A stretch of 64,000 nt of DNA, taken from the NCBI RefSeq assembly GCF_030177755.1, contig NZ_CP126539.1, forward strand, positions 1,388,001 through 1,452,000. Direction: 5' to 3'. Under the pieces are notes generated by a model, which saw nothing but the letters and a program-made list of their open reading frames with translations, did not search any database and was not told the origin of the DNA. Below are positions 11,499-41,278 of the stretch, in pieces. Within the stretch, counting starts at the first letter, position 1; each line of letters opens with the position of its first letter. Source of the DNA: Devosia sp. RR2S18. GTDB taxonomy: Bacteria > Pseudomonadota > Alphaproteobacteria > Rhizobiales > Devosiaceae. The position numbers were made by a program, and so were the translations under genes.

Positions 11499-13970
11499 AT
11501 GCCGCAAAAGCCCATTGTTTATGATGCTCCAAAGCTTGAGCGCCCCGCCCCGACTGCTGAAGCCATCCAGAGCGAAATCCTTGAAAGACTGGTCTATTCA
11601 GTGGGCAAGGACCCCATTGTCGCGCGCCCACATGACTGGCTTGCCGCCACGATCCTGGCAGTGCGCGATCGGGTTATGGATCGCTGGATGGAATCATCCC
11701 GCGAGACGTGGCGAACGTCCCACAAGCGCGTTTACTACCTGAGCCTCGAATTCCTGATCGGCCGGCTCATGCGCGATGCCATGAGTAATGTCGGCCTGAT
11801 GGAGCCCGTGCGCGAAGCGCTCAAGAACCTCAATGTCGATCTCGGTGACCTCATTGATCTCGAGCCCGATGCAGCGCTTGGTAATGGTGGCCTCGGGCGC
11901 CTCGCCGCGTGCTTTCTGGAGTCGATGTCCTCGCTCAAGATCCCCGCTTACGGCTACGGCATTCGATATGTCCACGGCCTGTTCCGGCAGGAGATGAGCG
12001 AAGGCTGGCAGGTCGAACTGCCCGAGGATTGGCTCGCCCACGGCAACCCCTGGGAATTCGAGCGCCGCGAGAGCGCTTATGAAATTGGCTTTGGCGGACA
12101 TGTCGAGCCGGTTACAGATCCTGATGGCACGCAGCGGCAGGAGTGGCGTCCCAATGACCATCTGCTGGCGGTCGCCTTCGACACGCCAATCGTGGGTTGG
12201 CGGGGTGCCCGGGTGAACACGTTGCGGCTCTGGAGCGCGCAGCCGATCGATCCTATCCTGCTCGACAAATTCAATTCCGGGGATCACATCGGCGCCCTGG
12301 AAGAAAGCGCTCGCGCCGAGGCGATCACCCGGGTGCTTTATCCCGCTGACTCGACCGCCGCGGGCCAGGAACTGCGGCTGCGCCAGGAGTTTTTCTTCTC
12401 CTCGGCGTCCCTTCAGGACATTGTGCGTCGACACATCCAGCAGTACGGCGATTTGGCTTCCCTGCCGGACAAGGTTGCCATCCAACTAAACGATACGCAC
12501 CCGGCAATCTCCATCGCCGAGATGATGCGAATTCTGGTGGATCAGAACGGGTTGGAATGGGCTGAAGCCTGGAAGCTCACCCGGGCCACTTTCAGCTACA
12601 CCAACCACACGCTGTTGCCCGAAGCCCTTGAGAGTTGGTCTGTTGCCTTGCTGGAGCGGTTGCTGCCGCGGCACATGCAGATCATCTATCAAATCAATGC
12701 GGATGTGCTGAGCGAAGCCCGCCAGCGGGCGAAGTTCAACGACGCGCAAATTGCCAATGTATCCCTGATCGATGAGAACGGCGGGCGCCGGGTTCGCATG
12801 GGGCAACTCGCCTTTGTAGGGTCGCACAACATCAATGGCGTCTCGGCCCTGCACACCGACCTCATGAAGCAGACTGTGTTCTCGGACCTGCACAAGCTCT
12901 ATCCCGATCGCATCCAGAATAAGACCAATGGCATCACGCCGCGCCGCTGGATCCTCCAGAGCAATCCCGGTTTGACCAAGCTCATCACCGACCGGATCGG
13001 GCCTGCGTTCATGGACGACATCACGCTCCTGCGGGAGCTCGATGCACATGCCGAGGATCCGGGATTCCAGGAGCAGTTTGCGCAGGTCAAGCATGCCAAC
13101 AAGCTGCGCCTGACCAAGCTGATCAAGGACCGCATGAACATTATCGTCTCACCCGACGCCATGTTCGACGTGCAGATCAAACGCATTCACGAGTACAAGC
13201 GGCAGTTACTAAATATTATCCAAGCCGTTGCGCTTTATGATGAAATCCGCGCGCACCCGGAACGGGATTGGGTTCCTCGCGTTAAAATCTTCGCAGGCAA
13301 GGCCGCGCCAGGATACTGGAACGCCAAGCTCATCATCAAGCTGATCAACGACGTGGCTCGGGTCATCAACAACGACCCGGCCGTACGTGGGCTGCTCAAG
13401 GTGGTGTTCGTACCGAACTACAATGTGAGCTTGGCCGAAGTGATCGTTCCCGCTGCTGACCTTTCCGAGCAGATTTCCACCGCTGGCATGGAAGCTTCAG
13501 GCACCGGCAACATGAAGTTCATGGCCAATGGCGCCGTCACCATCGGCACCATGGACGGCGCCAATGTCGAGATGCACAAGGAAGTCGGGCCGGACAACAT
13601 CGTCATCTTTGGCCTCACCACTGAACAAGTCGATGAGAAGCGTGCCCGGAGCGAAGTGCCCCGTAGCGCCATCGATGCGTCGCCACGTCTCAAGGAAGCG
13701 CTGGATGCGATTTCGTCAGGCGTGTTCTCACCCGACGATCCCCATCGCTACCGAGATCTCGTTGGCGGGCTATATGATCATGACTGGTTCATGGTGGCGC
13801 GAGACTTTGACGCCTACACCGAGGCCCAGGCCAGGGTCGACGAGCTCTGGAATGACAAGCGGCGCTGGCGTGCGATGGCTATTCGCAATACCGCGCGGGT
13901 GGGCTTTTTCTCTTCTGACCGTACCATCCGCCAGTACGCCGAGGAAATCTGGGGCGTTCCGGTAGCATAG
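11499..13970 (+). CDS. glgP: Glycogen/starch phosphorylase
   Basis: Releases glucose-1-phosphate from glycogen by phosphorolysis. 823 aa, usual length. The conserved N-terminal blocks VYYLSLEFLIGR and ALGNGGLGRLAACFLES are present, and the pyridoxal-phosphate lysine motif ASGTGNMKFMANGAVTIGT lies near the C-terminus. I chose the ATG at 11499 because the family N-terminus starts about 20 residues before the EILERLVYSVGKDP helix; an in-frame ATG at 11457 adds 14 residues. First gene of the cluster glgP-glgB-glgC-glgA-pgm-glgX, all on the plus strand with small gaps, as in Agrobacterium. Confidence 0.95.
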   Translation: MPQKPIVYDAPKLERPAPTAEAIQSEILERLVYSVGKDPIVARPHDWLAATILAVRDRVMDRWMESSRETWRTSHKRVYYLSLEFLIGRLMRDAMSNVGLMEPVREALKNLNVDLGDLIDLEPDAALGNGGLGRLAACFLESMSSLKIPAYGYGIRYVHGLFRQEMSEGWQVELPEDWLAHGNPWEFERRESAYEIGFGGHVEPVTDPDGTQRQEWRPNDHLLAVAFDTPIVGWRGARVNTLRLWSAQPIDPILLDKFNSGDHIGALEESARAEAITRVLYPADSTAAGQELRLRQEFFFSSASLQDIVRRHIQQYGDLASLPDKVAIQLNDTHPAISIAEMMRILVDQNGLEWAEAWKLTRATFSYTNHTLLPEALESWSVALLERLLPRHMQIIYQINADVLSEARQRAKFNDAQIANVSLIDENGGRRVRMGQLAFVGSHNINGVSALHTDLMKQTVFSDLHKLYPDRIQNKTNGITPRRWILQSNPGLTKLITDRIGPAFMDDITLLRELDAHAEDPGFQEQFAQVKHANKLRLTKLIKDRMNIIVSPDAMFDVQIKRIHEYKRQLLNIIQAVALYDEIRAHPERDWVPRVKIFAGKAAPGYWNAKLIIKLINDVARVINNDPAVRGLLKVVFVPNYNVSLAEVIVPAADLSEQISTAGMEASGTGNMKFMANGAVTIGTMDGANVEMHKEVGPDNIVIFGLTTEQVDEKRARSEVPRSAIDASPRLKEALDAISSGVFSPDDPHRYRDLVGGLYDHDWFMVARDFDAYTEAQARVDELWNDKRRWRAMAIRNTARVGFFSSDRTIRQYAEEIWGVPVA

Positions 13971-27323: not shown

Positions 27324-29033
27324 TCAGAACAGAAAGTAGCGTTGCGCCATAGGAAGAACTGTCGCTGGCTCGCAGGTCAAGAGTTCGCCATCCGCCCGCA
27401 CTTCATAAGTCTCCGGGTCAACCTCGATTTGCGGCGTGGCGGCATTGTGCACCATCGCGGCCTTGCCGATGCCGCTCCGCGTGTTCTTGACCGGCAGGAG
27501 TTGCTTTTCCACCCCGAGCTTGTTCCGCAGCCCGTCGTCGTGGGCAGCTTGAGACACGAAAACCACCGAAGAGCGCGTGAGGAGCTTGCCGAAGGAAGCA
27601 AACATGGGCCGATAGTGCATGGGCTGCGGCGTCGGAATGGAGGCGTTCGGATCGCCCATAGGTGCCGCAGCGATAGAGCCTCCAAGGAGGATCATTTCGG
27701 GCTTCACCCCAAAGAAAGCGGGGTGCCACAGCACCAGGTCGGCGCGCTTGCCAACTTTGATCGAGCCGATGTGCTGGCTCATGCCATGGGCGATGGCTGG
27801 GTTGATCGTGTACTTCGCAATATACCGCTTCACGCGGAAGTTGTCGTTCTCACCGGTTTCCTCCGGCAGGCGACCGCGCTGCCGCTTCATCTTGTCTGCT
27901 GTCTGCCAGGTGCGGATGATTACCTCACCAACTCGACCCATGGCCTGGCTGTCCGACGCGATAACCGAAAAGGCGCCCATGTCGTGGAGGATGTCTTCGG
28001 CCGCAATGGTCTCCTTGCGGATACGGCTCTCGGCGAAAGCCACGTCCTCGGGAATCGATGGATCGAGGTGGTGGCAGACCATCAGCATGTCGAGATGTTC
28101 GGCGATGGTGTTGACCGTATAGGGCCGGGTCGGGTTGGTGGAGGAGGGAATCACATTGGGGAACCCCACGGCCTTGATGATGTCGGGTGCGTGCCCGCCG
28201 CCAGCCCCTTCGGTGTGATAGGCATGGATGGTGCGGCCCTTGAGCGCTGCGATAGTGTCTTCCACAAAGCCGCTCTCATTGAGCGTGTCGGTGTGGATCA
28301 TCACCTGGACGTCGTAGTCGTCGGCCACCGCAAGGCAGTTGTCGATTGCGGCCGGGGTGGTGCCCCAATCCTCGTGCAGCTTCATGCAGGCGGCGCCGGC
28401 TAGGATCATTTCCGCCAGCGGTGCCGGCAGCGAGGCATTGCCTTTTCCAGCTAAAGCCAGGTTCATGGGAAAGGCATCAAAGCTCTCGATCATGCGCTGG
28501 ATATGCCAGGCCCCGGTGCAGGTGGTCGCAAGTGTCCCATGCGCCGGTCCTGACCCACCGCCCAACATCGTCGTAATGCCGCTCATCAGCGCTTCCTCGA
28601 TCTGCTGGGGAGCGATGAAGTGGATATGGGCGTCCATACCGCCCGCGGTCAGAATGCGGCCTTCGCCGGCAATGGCCTCGGTCGAGGGGCCGATGATGAT
28701 GTCGACGCCCGGTTGCGTATCGGGATTGCCCGCCTTGCCGATGGCTGCGATCACCCCGTCCTTCAAGCCGATATCGGCTTTGTAAATGCCGGTGACGTCG
28801 ACAACGAGGGCGTTGGTGATAACGGTATCCACGGCACCTTCCGCACGGGTACGTTGGGATTGACCCATGCCGTCCCGGATCACCTTGCCGCCGCCGAACT
28901 TCACCTCCTCGCCATAGGTGGTGAAATCCTTTTCAACTTCGATGAAGAGCTCGGTATCCGCCAGACGGACCTTGTCGCCCGTGGTGGGGCCATACATGTC
29001 GGCATAGGTGGCGCGGGGAATGCGAGCGGGCAT
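27324..29033 (-). CDS. ureC: Urease alpha subunit
   Basis: Catalytic subunit of nickel urease: urea to ammonia and carbamate. 569 aa, usual length. Visible are the metal-binding His pair in [12 protein letters not shown], the lysine that is carbamylated to bridge both nickels (Lys218 in CMKLHEDWG), and the mobile flap MVCHHLDP with Cys320 and catalytic His321. All active-site residues expected from Klebsiella urease are present with an offset of one. The order is ureD-A-B-(orf)-C. It works in the cytoplasm as an (ABC)3-type complex. Confidence 0.97.
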
Positions 29034-36709: not shown

Positions 36710-36950
36710 GCCCACGGGGGCGGAGGCTAAGGTATTGAATCCGAGGAAAAGAAGCCGGCGATCGGCCGTGAACTTTCATGCTAGGCGAGGCCGCATGGAG
36801 GCAGTGCGCCTATTTTCCGCCCAGATGAAACATGACCTGATTATTTGTTGAGCAATTTAGCCGTTGCGCCGTGCCTGTGAGCTGCGCAGTTACCTCCTTC
36901 GCTGGCGCATCCGGCGCCCGAGGCCGTTCTGATCACAGATGAAATTGCGC

Positions 36951-36975
36951 GGAACTCAAGTGTGGTCGTGCCGTT
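36951..36975 (+). promoter_or_regulatory. EcfG-type general-stress promoter for the small RNA
   Basis: GGAAC (36951-36955), 16-base spacer, CGTT (36972-36975): exact consensus for the alphaproteobacterial general stress sigma factor EcfG/RpoE2. Transcription should start near 36982. No protein gene follows on this strand before the terminator at 37106-37140. Confidence 0.75.
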
Positions 36976-36981
36976 AATCGA

Positions 36982-37140
36982 CGGACCGGGCAACACGAAA
37001 ACCTCCCCTGCACCGGACAAGTTTTGGCGTTCGTCTCCTCCCCGGACGCCAATCGATCGGTGGACTGCCGCAGAGGCTGACGCTCCTTTGTGGTGTCTCC
37101 GGTGGGGGCGCGAAACTTCGGTTTCGCGCCCTTTTTCTTT
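36982..37140 (+). ncRNA. Predicted stress-induced small RNA with anti-Shine-Dalgarno loops (alpha-r14/cuckoo-like)
   Basis: The 159-base interval runs from an exact EcfG promoter to a strong intrinsic terminator and contains no ATG on this strand. Hairpin 1 (about 36986-37016) exposes ACCTCCCC. Hairpin 2 has a 7-bp stem GGCGTTC/GGACGCC (37026-37032 and 37044-37050) with an 11-base loop holding CTCCTCCCC (37035-37043). The terminator hairpin follows. C-rich anti-Shine-Dalgarno loops plus a terminator are the defining look of the rhizobial alpha-r14 and Rhodobacter CcsR/cuckoo RNAs, which pair with ribosome-binding sites of target mRNAs. Expression and targets are inference. It is divergent from urtA. 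Confidence 0.65.
37106..37140 (+). terminator. Intrinsic terminator of the small RNA
   Basis: Stem GGGCGCGAAAC (37106-37116), loop TTCG, stem GTTTCGCGCCC (37121-37131), then TTTTTCTTT. A perfect 11-bp stem with an extra-stable UUCG tetraloop and a T-tract, oriented on the plus strand. The ald gene ends just beyond it on the other strand, where no T-tract follows the hairpin. Confidence 0.9.
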
Positions 37141-37142
37141 TG

Positions 37143-38261
37143 CTAGCTGGCGAGTGCCAGTTCGGGCGCGACATAGTCGTAGCCCTGCACCTTGGCGACG
37201 GGCTCGCAGGTGACCTTGCCATCCCAAACGTTGAGGCCAGCGCGCAAATGCGGGTCGGCCTTGAGCGCCTCCTTCCAACCCTTGCTCGCCAGTCGCGTGA
37301 CATGGGGCAGGGTGGCATTGTTGAGGGCGTAGGTAGAGGTGCGCGCGACACCACCGGGCATGTTGGCAACGCAATAGTGCACGATGCCATCTATCACGAA
37401 GGTGGGTTCGGCATGCGTGGTAGGGTGGGAGGTCTCGAAACATCCGCCCTGGTCGATGGCGACATCGACGAGCACCGCACCCGTCTTCATGGTCGACAGC
37501 ATTTCGCGCGTTACCAGCTTGGGCGCCGATGCACCCGGTATCAACACTGCCCCGATGACGAGATCGGCGTTGGCGATTTGCTCGGCGATGGCCGCCTTGT
37601 TGGAGTAAAGCACGCGCGCCCGGGCGCCGAAGTGGCTGGAAAGGCGCTCCAGGGCCATTGGGCTTTTGTCGAAAATGGTGACGTCGGCCTGGAGACCGAC
37701 GGCATTCTCCGCCGCATGAAAACCGACCACACCGCCCCCCAGGATGACAACTTTGGCCGGTTGCACGCCGGGAACGCCGCCGAGCAACACGCCGCGGCCG
37801 CCATGCGCCTTCTCCAATGCGGTGGCGCCGGCCTGGATCGACATGCGGCCGGCAACCTGGCTCATGGGCTTGAGCAGCGGGAGGGCGCCGCTGCTATCCG
37901 TCACGGTTTCATAGGCAATGGCCGTGGCGCCGGAACTAACCAACTCACGGGTCTGATCAGGATCGGGCGCCAAGTGTAGATAGGTAAACAGTAATTGCCC
38001 CCGTTGCAGCATTGCACGTTCAATTGCCTGGGGCTCCTTGACCTTGACGATCATTTCGGCGCTCTCAAAAACCGCCTGCGCATCGGGGGCGATCTCGGCG
38101 CCGGCGGCGCGATAGTCCTCGTCGCTGTCGCCAATCCCGGCGCCAGCCTGGGTTTCGATCAGAACCTGATGTCCCAGATGGGTCAGCTCTGCCACGCTCT
38201 CGGGTGTCAGGCCGACCCGATATTCATGGTTTTTGATTTCTTTGGGCACCCCAATTCGCAT
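37143..38261 (-). CDS. ald: Alanine dehydrogenase
   Basis: A 372-aa NAD-dependent enzyme converting L-alanine and pyruvate + ammonia reversibly. It starts [20 protein letters not shown]; the pyruvate-binding region has the VKVKEPQ segment; the Rossmann fold carries [20 protein letters not shown]; and the late [13 protein letters not shown] block is characteristic. The length is normal. It is divergent from an Lrp-family gene that is probably its regulator (AldR type). It may work with urease-derived ammonia, but that is inference. Confidence 0.96.
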
Positions 38262-38382: not shown

Positions 38383-38847
38383 ATGGAATTGCAGATCGAT
38401 GCCATAGACCGGAAGCTCTTGCGTGCGCTCCAGGAGGATAGCCGCCGCAGCGTGCAGGATTTGGGCGAGCTCGTCGGTCTATCGGCATCCGCCTGCCATC
38501 GCCGTCTTAAGGGGCTGGAAGACCGAGGGTTGGTGGAAGGCTATAGGGCCGTGCTCAACGCCAAGCGGCTGGGCTATGCCATGCAGTTTTTTATCGAAGT
38601 GGGGCTCAACAGCCAGAGCGAAACCGCGCTGGAGGCGTTCGAGTCAGCGGTGCGCGATATTCCGGAGGTGCTCGAGTGCCATTTGATGGCCGGGCAATCG
38701 GACTATATCCTGCGCATCGTCTGTCGGGACCATGAAGATTTCGAGCGCGTGCACCGGCGGCTAAGTGCCCGCCTACCGGGCGTGGCGCGCATCCATTCCA
38801 ACATGAGCATCCGCACCGTAAAGGCGCGGATGGGTCTGCCGATCTAG
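38383..38847 (+). CDS. aldR: Lrp/AsnC-family regulator (probable AldR)
   Basis: A 154-aa protein. The N-terminal helix-turn-helix (about residues 5-60) reads IDRKLLRALQEDSRRSVQDL followed by VGLSASACHRRLKGLEDRG. A C-terminal RAM/AsnC ligand-binding domain (about 68-145) follows, with VLECHLMAGQSDYILRIV. Its divergent position 121 bases from ald strongly suggests it controls alanine catabolism, as AldR/Lrp-like regulators do in other alphaproteobacteria. Function is assigned by context. Confidence 0.85.
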   Translation: MELQIDAIDRKLLRALQEDSRRSVQDLGELVGLSASACHRRLKGLEDRGLVEGYRAVLNAKRLGYAMQFFIEVGLNSQSETALEAFESAVRDIPEVLECHLMAGQSDYILRIVCRDHEDFERVHRRLSARLPGVARIHSNMSIRTVKARMGLPI

Positions 38848-39503: not shown

Positions 39504-39528
39504 AACGAATGCCGGCCGCACCTGTTCC
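39504..39528 (-). promoter_or_regulatory. EcfG-type general-stress promoter of sodC
   Basis: On the minus strand GGAAC (39524-39528), 16-base spacer, CGTT (39504-39507), an exact consensus match. Predicted transcription start is near 39497, about 36 bases before the sodC start codon. Confidence 0.75.
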
Positions 39529-41253: not shown

Positions 41254-41278
41254 AACGGGAGCAGGCCAAACCCGTTCC
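41254..41278 (-). promoter_or_regulatory. EcfG-type general-stress promoter of the trehalose-synthase-like gene
   Basis: On the minus strand GGAAC (41274-41278), 16-base spacer, CGTT (41254-41257): exact consensus. It lies just downstream of the stop codon of the PD40 gene (41282), so the enzyme can be expressed independently of that upstream gene. Confidence 0.7.

Follow-up and report, generated by a model that had tools for sequence, protein, structure and literature searches.

The sRNA locus and its predicted structure

The window, i.e., the whole 64,000-nt stretch of DNA analysed in this work, belongs to a Devosia genome of 3.97 Mb in a single contig. Within it, the 36951-37141 region is flanked by two minus-strand genes, a urea-type binding-protein gene and an alanine dehydrogenase gene, and the nearest downstream plus-strand gene with a family match is of lrp type, at 38383. 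The region most likely corresponds to the gene of an undescribed small regulatory RNA (sRNA) of Devosia, induced in the general stress response (GSR), with the following features:

36931-36940 (+): GATCACA-type upstream motif, possible activator site; conserved, from ATCAC counts among 43 exact-promoter Devosia copies
36951-36975 (+): EcfG-type promoter GGAAC-N16-CGTT (-35 at 36951-36955, -10 at 36972-36975); exact match, conserved
36980-37141 (+): putative sRNA transcript of about 160 nt, with predicted ends; covariance model R1
36986-37016 (+): 5' hairpin exposing ACCTCCCC (37001-37008); predicted fold
37024-37052 (+): second hairpin, C-rich loop with CTCCTCCCC (37035-37043); predicted fold
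37068-37093 (+): core hairpin, seed loop CTGACGCT (37077-37084), then CCTTTG; alignment, covariation and fold
37106-37141 (+): intrinsic terminator, 11 bp, UUCG loop, T-tract; fold, aligned in 30 copies

The initial annotation placed here an exact EcfG promoter, an ATG-free stretch, exposed C-rich loops and a perfect terminator. The promoter is indeed exact, no ATG occurs on the plus strand in 36982-37140 (a GTG-started ORF of 83 aa crosses this stretch), and the terminator is a perfect 11-bp hairpin with a UUCG loop, TTTTTCTTTT (37106-37131), followed by a T-tract. The C-rich hairpin is present as well, but it was computed as 10 bp with a 9-nt loop, UCUCCUCCC (37024-37052), and not as 7 bp with an 11-nt loop; both C-rich stretches are mostly exposed, with a mean probability of being unpaired of 0.89 for CTCCTCCCC and 0.85 for ACCTCCCC. 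Further, the 36975-37140 segment (166 nt) folds with z = -3.69, none of 200 shuffles being equally stable, and a scan of 600 bp yielded 3 terminator-like sites against 0.8 in shuffles. The full-transcript covariance model R1, built from the window copy and 29 others, matches 36980-37146 with 141.5 bits.

An Rfam search at the sRNA returned no family over threshold, the library used perhaps lacking an alpha-r14 model; there were five sub-threshold matches, the best four of which overlap the terminator on the plus strand. Elsewhere in the window, Rfam matched 5_ureB_sRNA at 28592-28880 (+) with 109 bits, perhaps merely reflecting urease sequence conservation.

Distribution, promoter and conserved core hairpin

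By blastn, a homologue was detected in 34 of 61 genomes, all of these being among the 37 Devosia genomes (own genome included) and none among the 24 from other families. Since R1 matches terminators of protein genes across the order, with the core present in only 7 of the 30 matched loci that were read, all 7 of the family, a core-hairpin covariance model was made from 37 copies (R2). At E <= 0.1, R2 detected the core in 89 of 136 family genomes (68/75 of Devosia and 21/61 of the others), and, of 397 genomes sampled from the order, 15 matched, 12 of them in the family; these model searches used filters able to lose weak matches. The three matches outside the family were discarded, being weak (E 0.002-0.04) and with GACGCTCC nowhere in their loci. 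In total, 68 copies from 68 genomes were read, 47 from Devosia and 21 from other genera. Searching named genomes for a 21-base core pattern returned 25 stretches, 22 of them labelled as Devosia. One contig labelled as a Methanomicrobiales archaeon (L242) carries a Devosia-type sRNA core and is probably mis-binned.

The genes around the sRNA differ among relatives. Within 37 three-kb loci (own included), relatives of ald were found in 5, of urtA in 7 and of lrp in 16, the remaining neighbours resembling, by eye, LuxR-type or outer-membrane genes; in longer stretches of 12-14 kb, a urtA relative was present in 24 of 33. In Devosia the promoter-RNA-terminator unit stays constant while its neighbouring genes change between relatives, and on the evidence of genome comparison the 36951-37141 region is a genuine sRNA gene, as originally proposed.

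The promoter GGAAC-N16-CGTT is exact in 43 of the 47 Devosia copies, with a near version in 2 and none in 2, and the 21 copies from other genera display GCAAC-N16-CGTT in 13, a near version in 2 and none in 6. Reversed and antisense patterns, used as controls, occurred in 0 of the 68 copies; of the 30 blastn homologue loci, 29 have the exact promoter ahead of the RNA and 1 has a near version. The sRNA promoter is credible because of this conservation, the motif by itself being weak evidence, with 57 exact matches genome-wide against 61 for the reversed pattern. Transcription of the RNA and its dependence on EcfG are predictions. Within the window, 5 promoter matches (N16 or N17) were found against 0.91 expected, of which those at 13259 and 20488 were dropped, as both lie inside coding ORFs. 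Exact EcfG-type promoters also occur at 39504-39528 (-) and 41254-41278 (-), directly before Cu/Zn superoxide dismutase and alpha-amylase genes, 2.5-4 kb from the sRNA.

Upstream of the promoter, ATCAC starts 19-20 bp before GGAAC in 13 of the 43 exact-promoter Devosia copies and 30 bp before it in another 13; it shows other spacings in 3 and is absent within 60 bp in 14. The two main spacings, covering 26/43 copies, are about 11 bp apart, approximately one helical turn, which suggests that the motif is an activator site; ATCAC is missing from 12 of the 13 GCAAC-type copies.

Regarding the GSR itself, phyR, preceded by this promoter motif, is present in the genome together with a divergent ECF sigma gene, and a PhyR_sigma2 match was found in 60 of the 61 genus genomes searched. 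Three or four such matches occur in 52 of these 61, against two in the own genome (G000), from which an additional ECF sigma (about 175 aa) is seemingly missing.

The constant part of the RNA, and the most conserved, is the third hairpin (37068-37093), which the initial annotation overlooked. It carries the loop YYGACGCU, then CC, on a covarying stem. Every one of the 68 aligned copies contains GACGCTCC, in part as a result of how they were selected, since the copies were placed by that string and rewarded for it by the model; it is also present in 31 of the 32 stretches fetched for R2 matches, the exception being a weak second match in one genome (G009), which lacks the loop and was dropped. 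The seed loop has a mean probability of being unpaired of 0.96 in the window copy, and is fully unpaired in 34 of 35 Devosia folds.

When 48 distinct core sequences were compared, the 9-bp stem was formed in 92.6% of cells (79.4% in shuffled alignments), 67 cells were changed on both sides (24.7 shuffled) and the covariation score was 0.539 (0.279 shuffled); none of 500 shuffles reached any of these three values, and these controls remove relatedness only in part. Double changes affect 7 of the 9 stem pairs (5.3 shuffled), a number reached by 41 of the 500 shuffles. Slid structures all scored below the true stem, and one stem pair is A-U in 28 sequences and G-C in 20. The aligned sequences thus draw the picture of a fixed loop on a freely varying stem.

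The C-rich loops, which the initial annotation singled out, are not the constant part in the comparison across Devosia: ACCTCCCC is present in 1 of 35 transcripts, 22 have CCTCC upstream of the core (10 of them with the motif exposed in the minimum-energy fold), and the alpha-r14 motif CCUCCUCCC is found in none of the 35. These loops may be a variable addition that contributes in some species. A plausible C-rich loop taken from one genome can therefore mislead, the comparison pointing to another hairpin.

The glsB start site as a candidate target

The complement of the core loop GACGCU plus CC is GGAGCGUC, a Shine-Dalgarno plus spacer. In the own genome, GGAGCGTC-N0-10-ATG has 33 occurrences, against 12 for the reversed pattern; of the 30 looked at, the credible starts were those of glsB (84 aa), ino1, a 60-aa protein, a LysR-type gene and transposases, some of these names being assigned by eye. 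We take glsB to encode a GlsB/YeaQ/YmgE-type small membrane stress protein. It was chosen because the own genome has GGAGCGTC there. The other two candidates picked in this way, ino1 (matched in three genus genomes) and the 60-aa protein, were rejected as targets, the site not being kept in relatives.

Among the 53 glsB matches listed, 50 leaders were read, and 35 genus leaders without an EcfG-type promoter were aligned on the Shine-Dalgarno. Exact GGAGCGTC is present in 22 of these 35, and the CGTC after GGAG holds 0.78-1.19 bits per column, against 0.04-0.83 in the 20 upstream columns, the highest of which are the A-rich ones that immediately precede the Shine-Dalgarno. At position +8 there is an A in 19/35 leaders and a G in 12/35, and the U of the loop can pair with either. 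Complementarity to the 16S tail does not account for CGTC.

Leaving out the own genome and three leaders from other families, the final 13 nt contain GCGTC in 22 of 34 genus leaders that lack an EcfG-type promoter, and in 6 of 12 EcfG-promoter leaders, in which the Shine-Dalgarno spacing is shifted. In the genus g126, GCGTC was found in 7 of 26 glsB leaders and full GGAGCGTC in 1 of 26; there, 31 matches gave 29 leaders read (one without locus and one weak match omitted), of which two unplaceable at contig ends and one without a Shine-Dalgarno (L295) were left uncounted. The background frequency was 7 of 534 mechanically chosen ATG starts (ORFs of >=100 aa with a Shine-Dalgarno-like motif, from the fetched loci and the window; 541 less 7 from motif-chosen loci or resembling glsB). 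Of all orderings of its letters, GCGTC is the most frequent in each of the three glsB groups, and is tied with three others in the background. Further, 28 of the 50 glsB leaders had a seed-leader duplex energy no higher than the 5% point of the background. The leaders share ancestry, so that the counts are not independent and are inflated by relatedness. GCGTC was absent from the three other-family glsB leaders.

By genome, GCGTC occurs in one or more glsB leaders of 24 of the 35 sRNA-positive genus genomes, and the other 11 lack it in any glsB leader read, several being off by one letter (G007, G010, G013, G015, G019, G021, G022, G024, G034, G035 and G036). Two of the genus genomes in which no sRNA was detected were read as well: GCGTC is present in G016 (62% complete) and absent from G020. 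We consider the glsB site conserved but, given these 11 genomes and the split between G016 and G020, do not claim a strict sRNA-target coupling. The initial idea of anti-Shine-Dalgarno pairing survives, with the complement GGAGCGUC conserved at many glsB starts, but through a hairpin other than the one claimed. A promoter-like pair, TTGCAACC ... CGACTTAT, recurs before one class of glsB genes (e.g., L104, L111 and L117); it is unlike the EcfG motif and possibly belongs to another ECF sigma.

Proposed mechanism and comparison with known sRNAs

By computation, we observed conservation, covariation, a promoter, a terminator and a conserved complementary site. We think it somewhat probable that the locus encodes a free-standing, trans-acting sRNA, induced in the GSR through PhyR/EcfG, which blocks the glsB start site. 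EcfG would start the RNA about 7 nt past the -10 element, and the transcript would fold into variable 5' hairpins, the constant seed hairpin and the terminator. The exposed YYGACGCU would nucleate pairing with GGAGCGUC(A/G) in the Shine-Dalgarno/spacer region of the glsB mRNA, the 3' arm CC(UUUG) would lengthen the duplex, and ribosome binding would be occluded by it, with the C-rich loops perhaps widening the target range in some species. The effect would probably be a dampening of the small membrane stress protein, via a loop, strongly conserved in the family, over its ribosome-binding site; the pairing with glsB is thus putative, repression is its predicted direction, and any role of Hfq is presumed. 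A broader proposal, made tentatively and with more doubt than conviction, is that of a family-wide sRNA of Devosia and relatives whose single constant loop, YYGACGCU plus CC, has kept its match to the glsB start. Over the same time, changes would have affected the promoter of the sRNA (GGAAC or GCAAC), that of glsB (TTGCAAC-type or EcfG-type) and the spacing of the Shine-Dalgarno, and the result would be a long-lived sRNA-mRNA pair tying the GSR to a second stress regulon.

A real EcfG-driven sRNA could also use its constant loop mainly on other mRNAs or RNA, with glsB as a secondary target, which we regard as unlikely, although it has several points in its favour: further own-genome starts carry GGAGCGTC (the LysR-type gene, transposases and ino1), GGAGCGTCG is found downstream of the EcfG-type promoter in the 5' leader of the window's sodC gene, g126 keeps the loop constant even though the site is missing from most of its glsB leaders, and 11/35 sRNA-positive genomes lack the site. 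Against it, the glsB site forms a conservation island that matches the loop complement and recurs at different Shine-Dalgarno spacing. The sodC site was itself dropped as a conserved target, three nearby matches having offered no credible start for comparison.

That the sRNA acts in the GSR chiefly through C-rich anti-Shine-Dalgarno loops, as first proposed, now appears improbable; the window copy does expose two such loops, and CCTCC lies 5' of the core in 22/35 copies, but it is exposed in 10/35, ACCTCCCC and CCUCCUCCC occur in 1/35 and 0/35, and copies without C-rich loops retain the seed hairpin, its loop unpaired in 34/35 folds. A protein-binding site would likewise show a fixed loop on a covarying stem, yet the conservation of the loop complement at glsB starts makes it very improbable that the hairpin binds a protein instead of an mRNA. 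Lastly, family-wide conservation and covariation leave it scarcely credible that a chance promoter and an unused terminator lie here with no gene, even with a promoter motif that alone is not enriched genome-wide. The reading that we prefer is still that of a GSR-induced sRNA with glsB as its putative target.

The open-licence literature, as far as its accessible portion goes, yielded nothing beyond a review for Devosia and sRNAs, and only apparently unrelated mentions of the loop sequence CUGACGCU, judged from the listing. The initial annotation proposed an unannotated GSR sRNA of the alpha-r14 or CcsR/cuckoo kind: the sRNA gene, with its conserved EcfG-type promoter, hairpins and terminator, stands, but the membership is not supported. 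As described, alpha-r14 RNAs resemble the Devosia sRNA in having loops complementary to the Shine-Dalgarno that stay constant while stems vary, and differ in their three hairpins each with CCUCCUCCC (PMC10746234, PMC3927594), a motif absent from 35/35 copies here. The founder of that family, NfeR1, which works by anti-Shine-Dalgarno silencing, is described with a sigma70 promoter (PMC10746234), in contrast to the EcfG-type one of the Devosia sRNA. CcsR/cuckoo RNAs are likewise stress-linked alphaproteobacterial sRNAs, and they are described as sharing a transcript with a DUF1127 gene, driven by an RpoHI/RpoHII promoter, and as being processed out of a precursor (PMC10253847); unlike these, the Devosia sRNA is one RNA with its own EcfG-type promoter, and its flanking genes, the binding-protein and alanine dehydrogenase genes (both -), include no DUF1127 gene.

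The resemblance to GsrN of Caulobacter is broader. GsrN is free-standing, has a sigma-EcfG/SigT promoter and pairs with mRNA leaders through an exposed loop (PMC5869019); similarly, the Devosia sRNA has an EcfG-type promoter directly upstream (43/47 Devosia copies exact) in a genome with PhyR and an EcfG-like sigma. The best conserved part of GsrN is a 5' C-rich loop (PMC5869019), whereas here it is GACGCU plus CC in the third hairpin, CCTCC being found in 22/35 transcripts and exposed in 10. Predicted GsrN homologues typically lie near ecfG-nepR-phyR, C. crescentus gsrN itself being an exception (PMC5869019), and the Devosia sRNA, at 1,424,940 of the own genome, is about 317 kb from the phyR domain at 1,108,084. 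GsrN is also cleaved into a stable 5' isoform and activates katG (PMC5869019), in contrast to the repressor role predicted here. If true, our proposal would add another EcfG-driven sRNA, minus the defining loop of the known kind, with a named and easily tested target and seed. In our best reading, the Devosia sRNA, which lacks tested defining features of GsrN, NfeR1 and CcsR, would work in a mode like those of GsrN and NfeR1, and is a member of neither.
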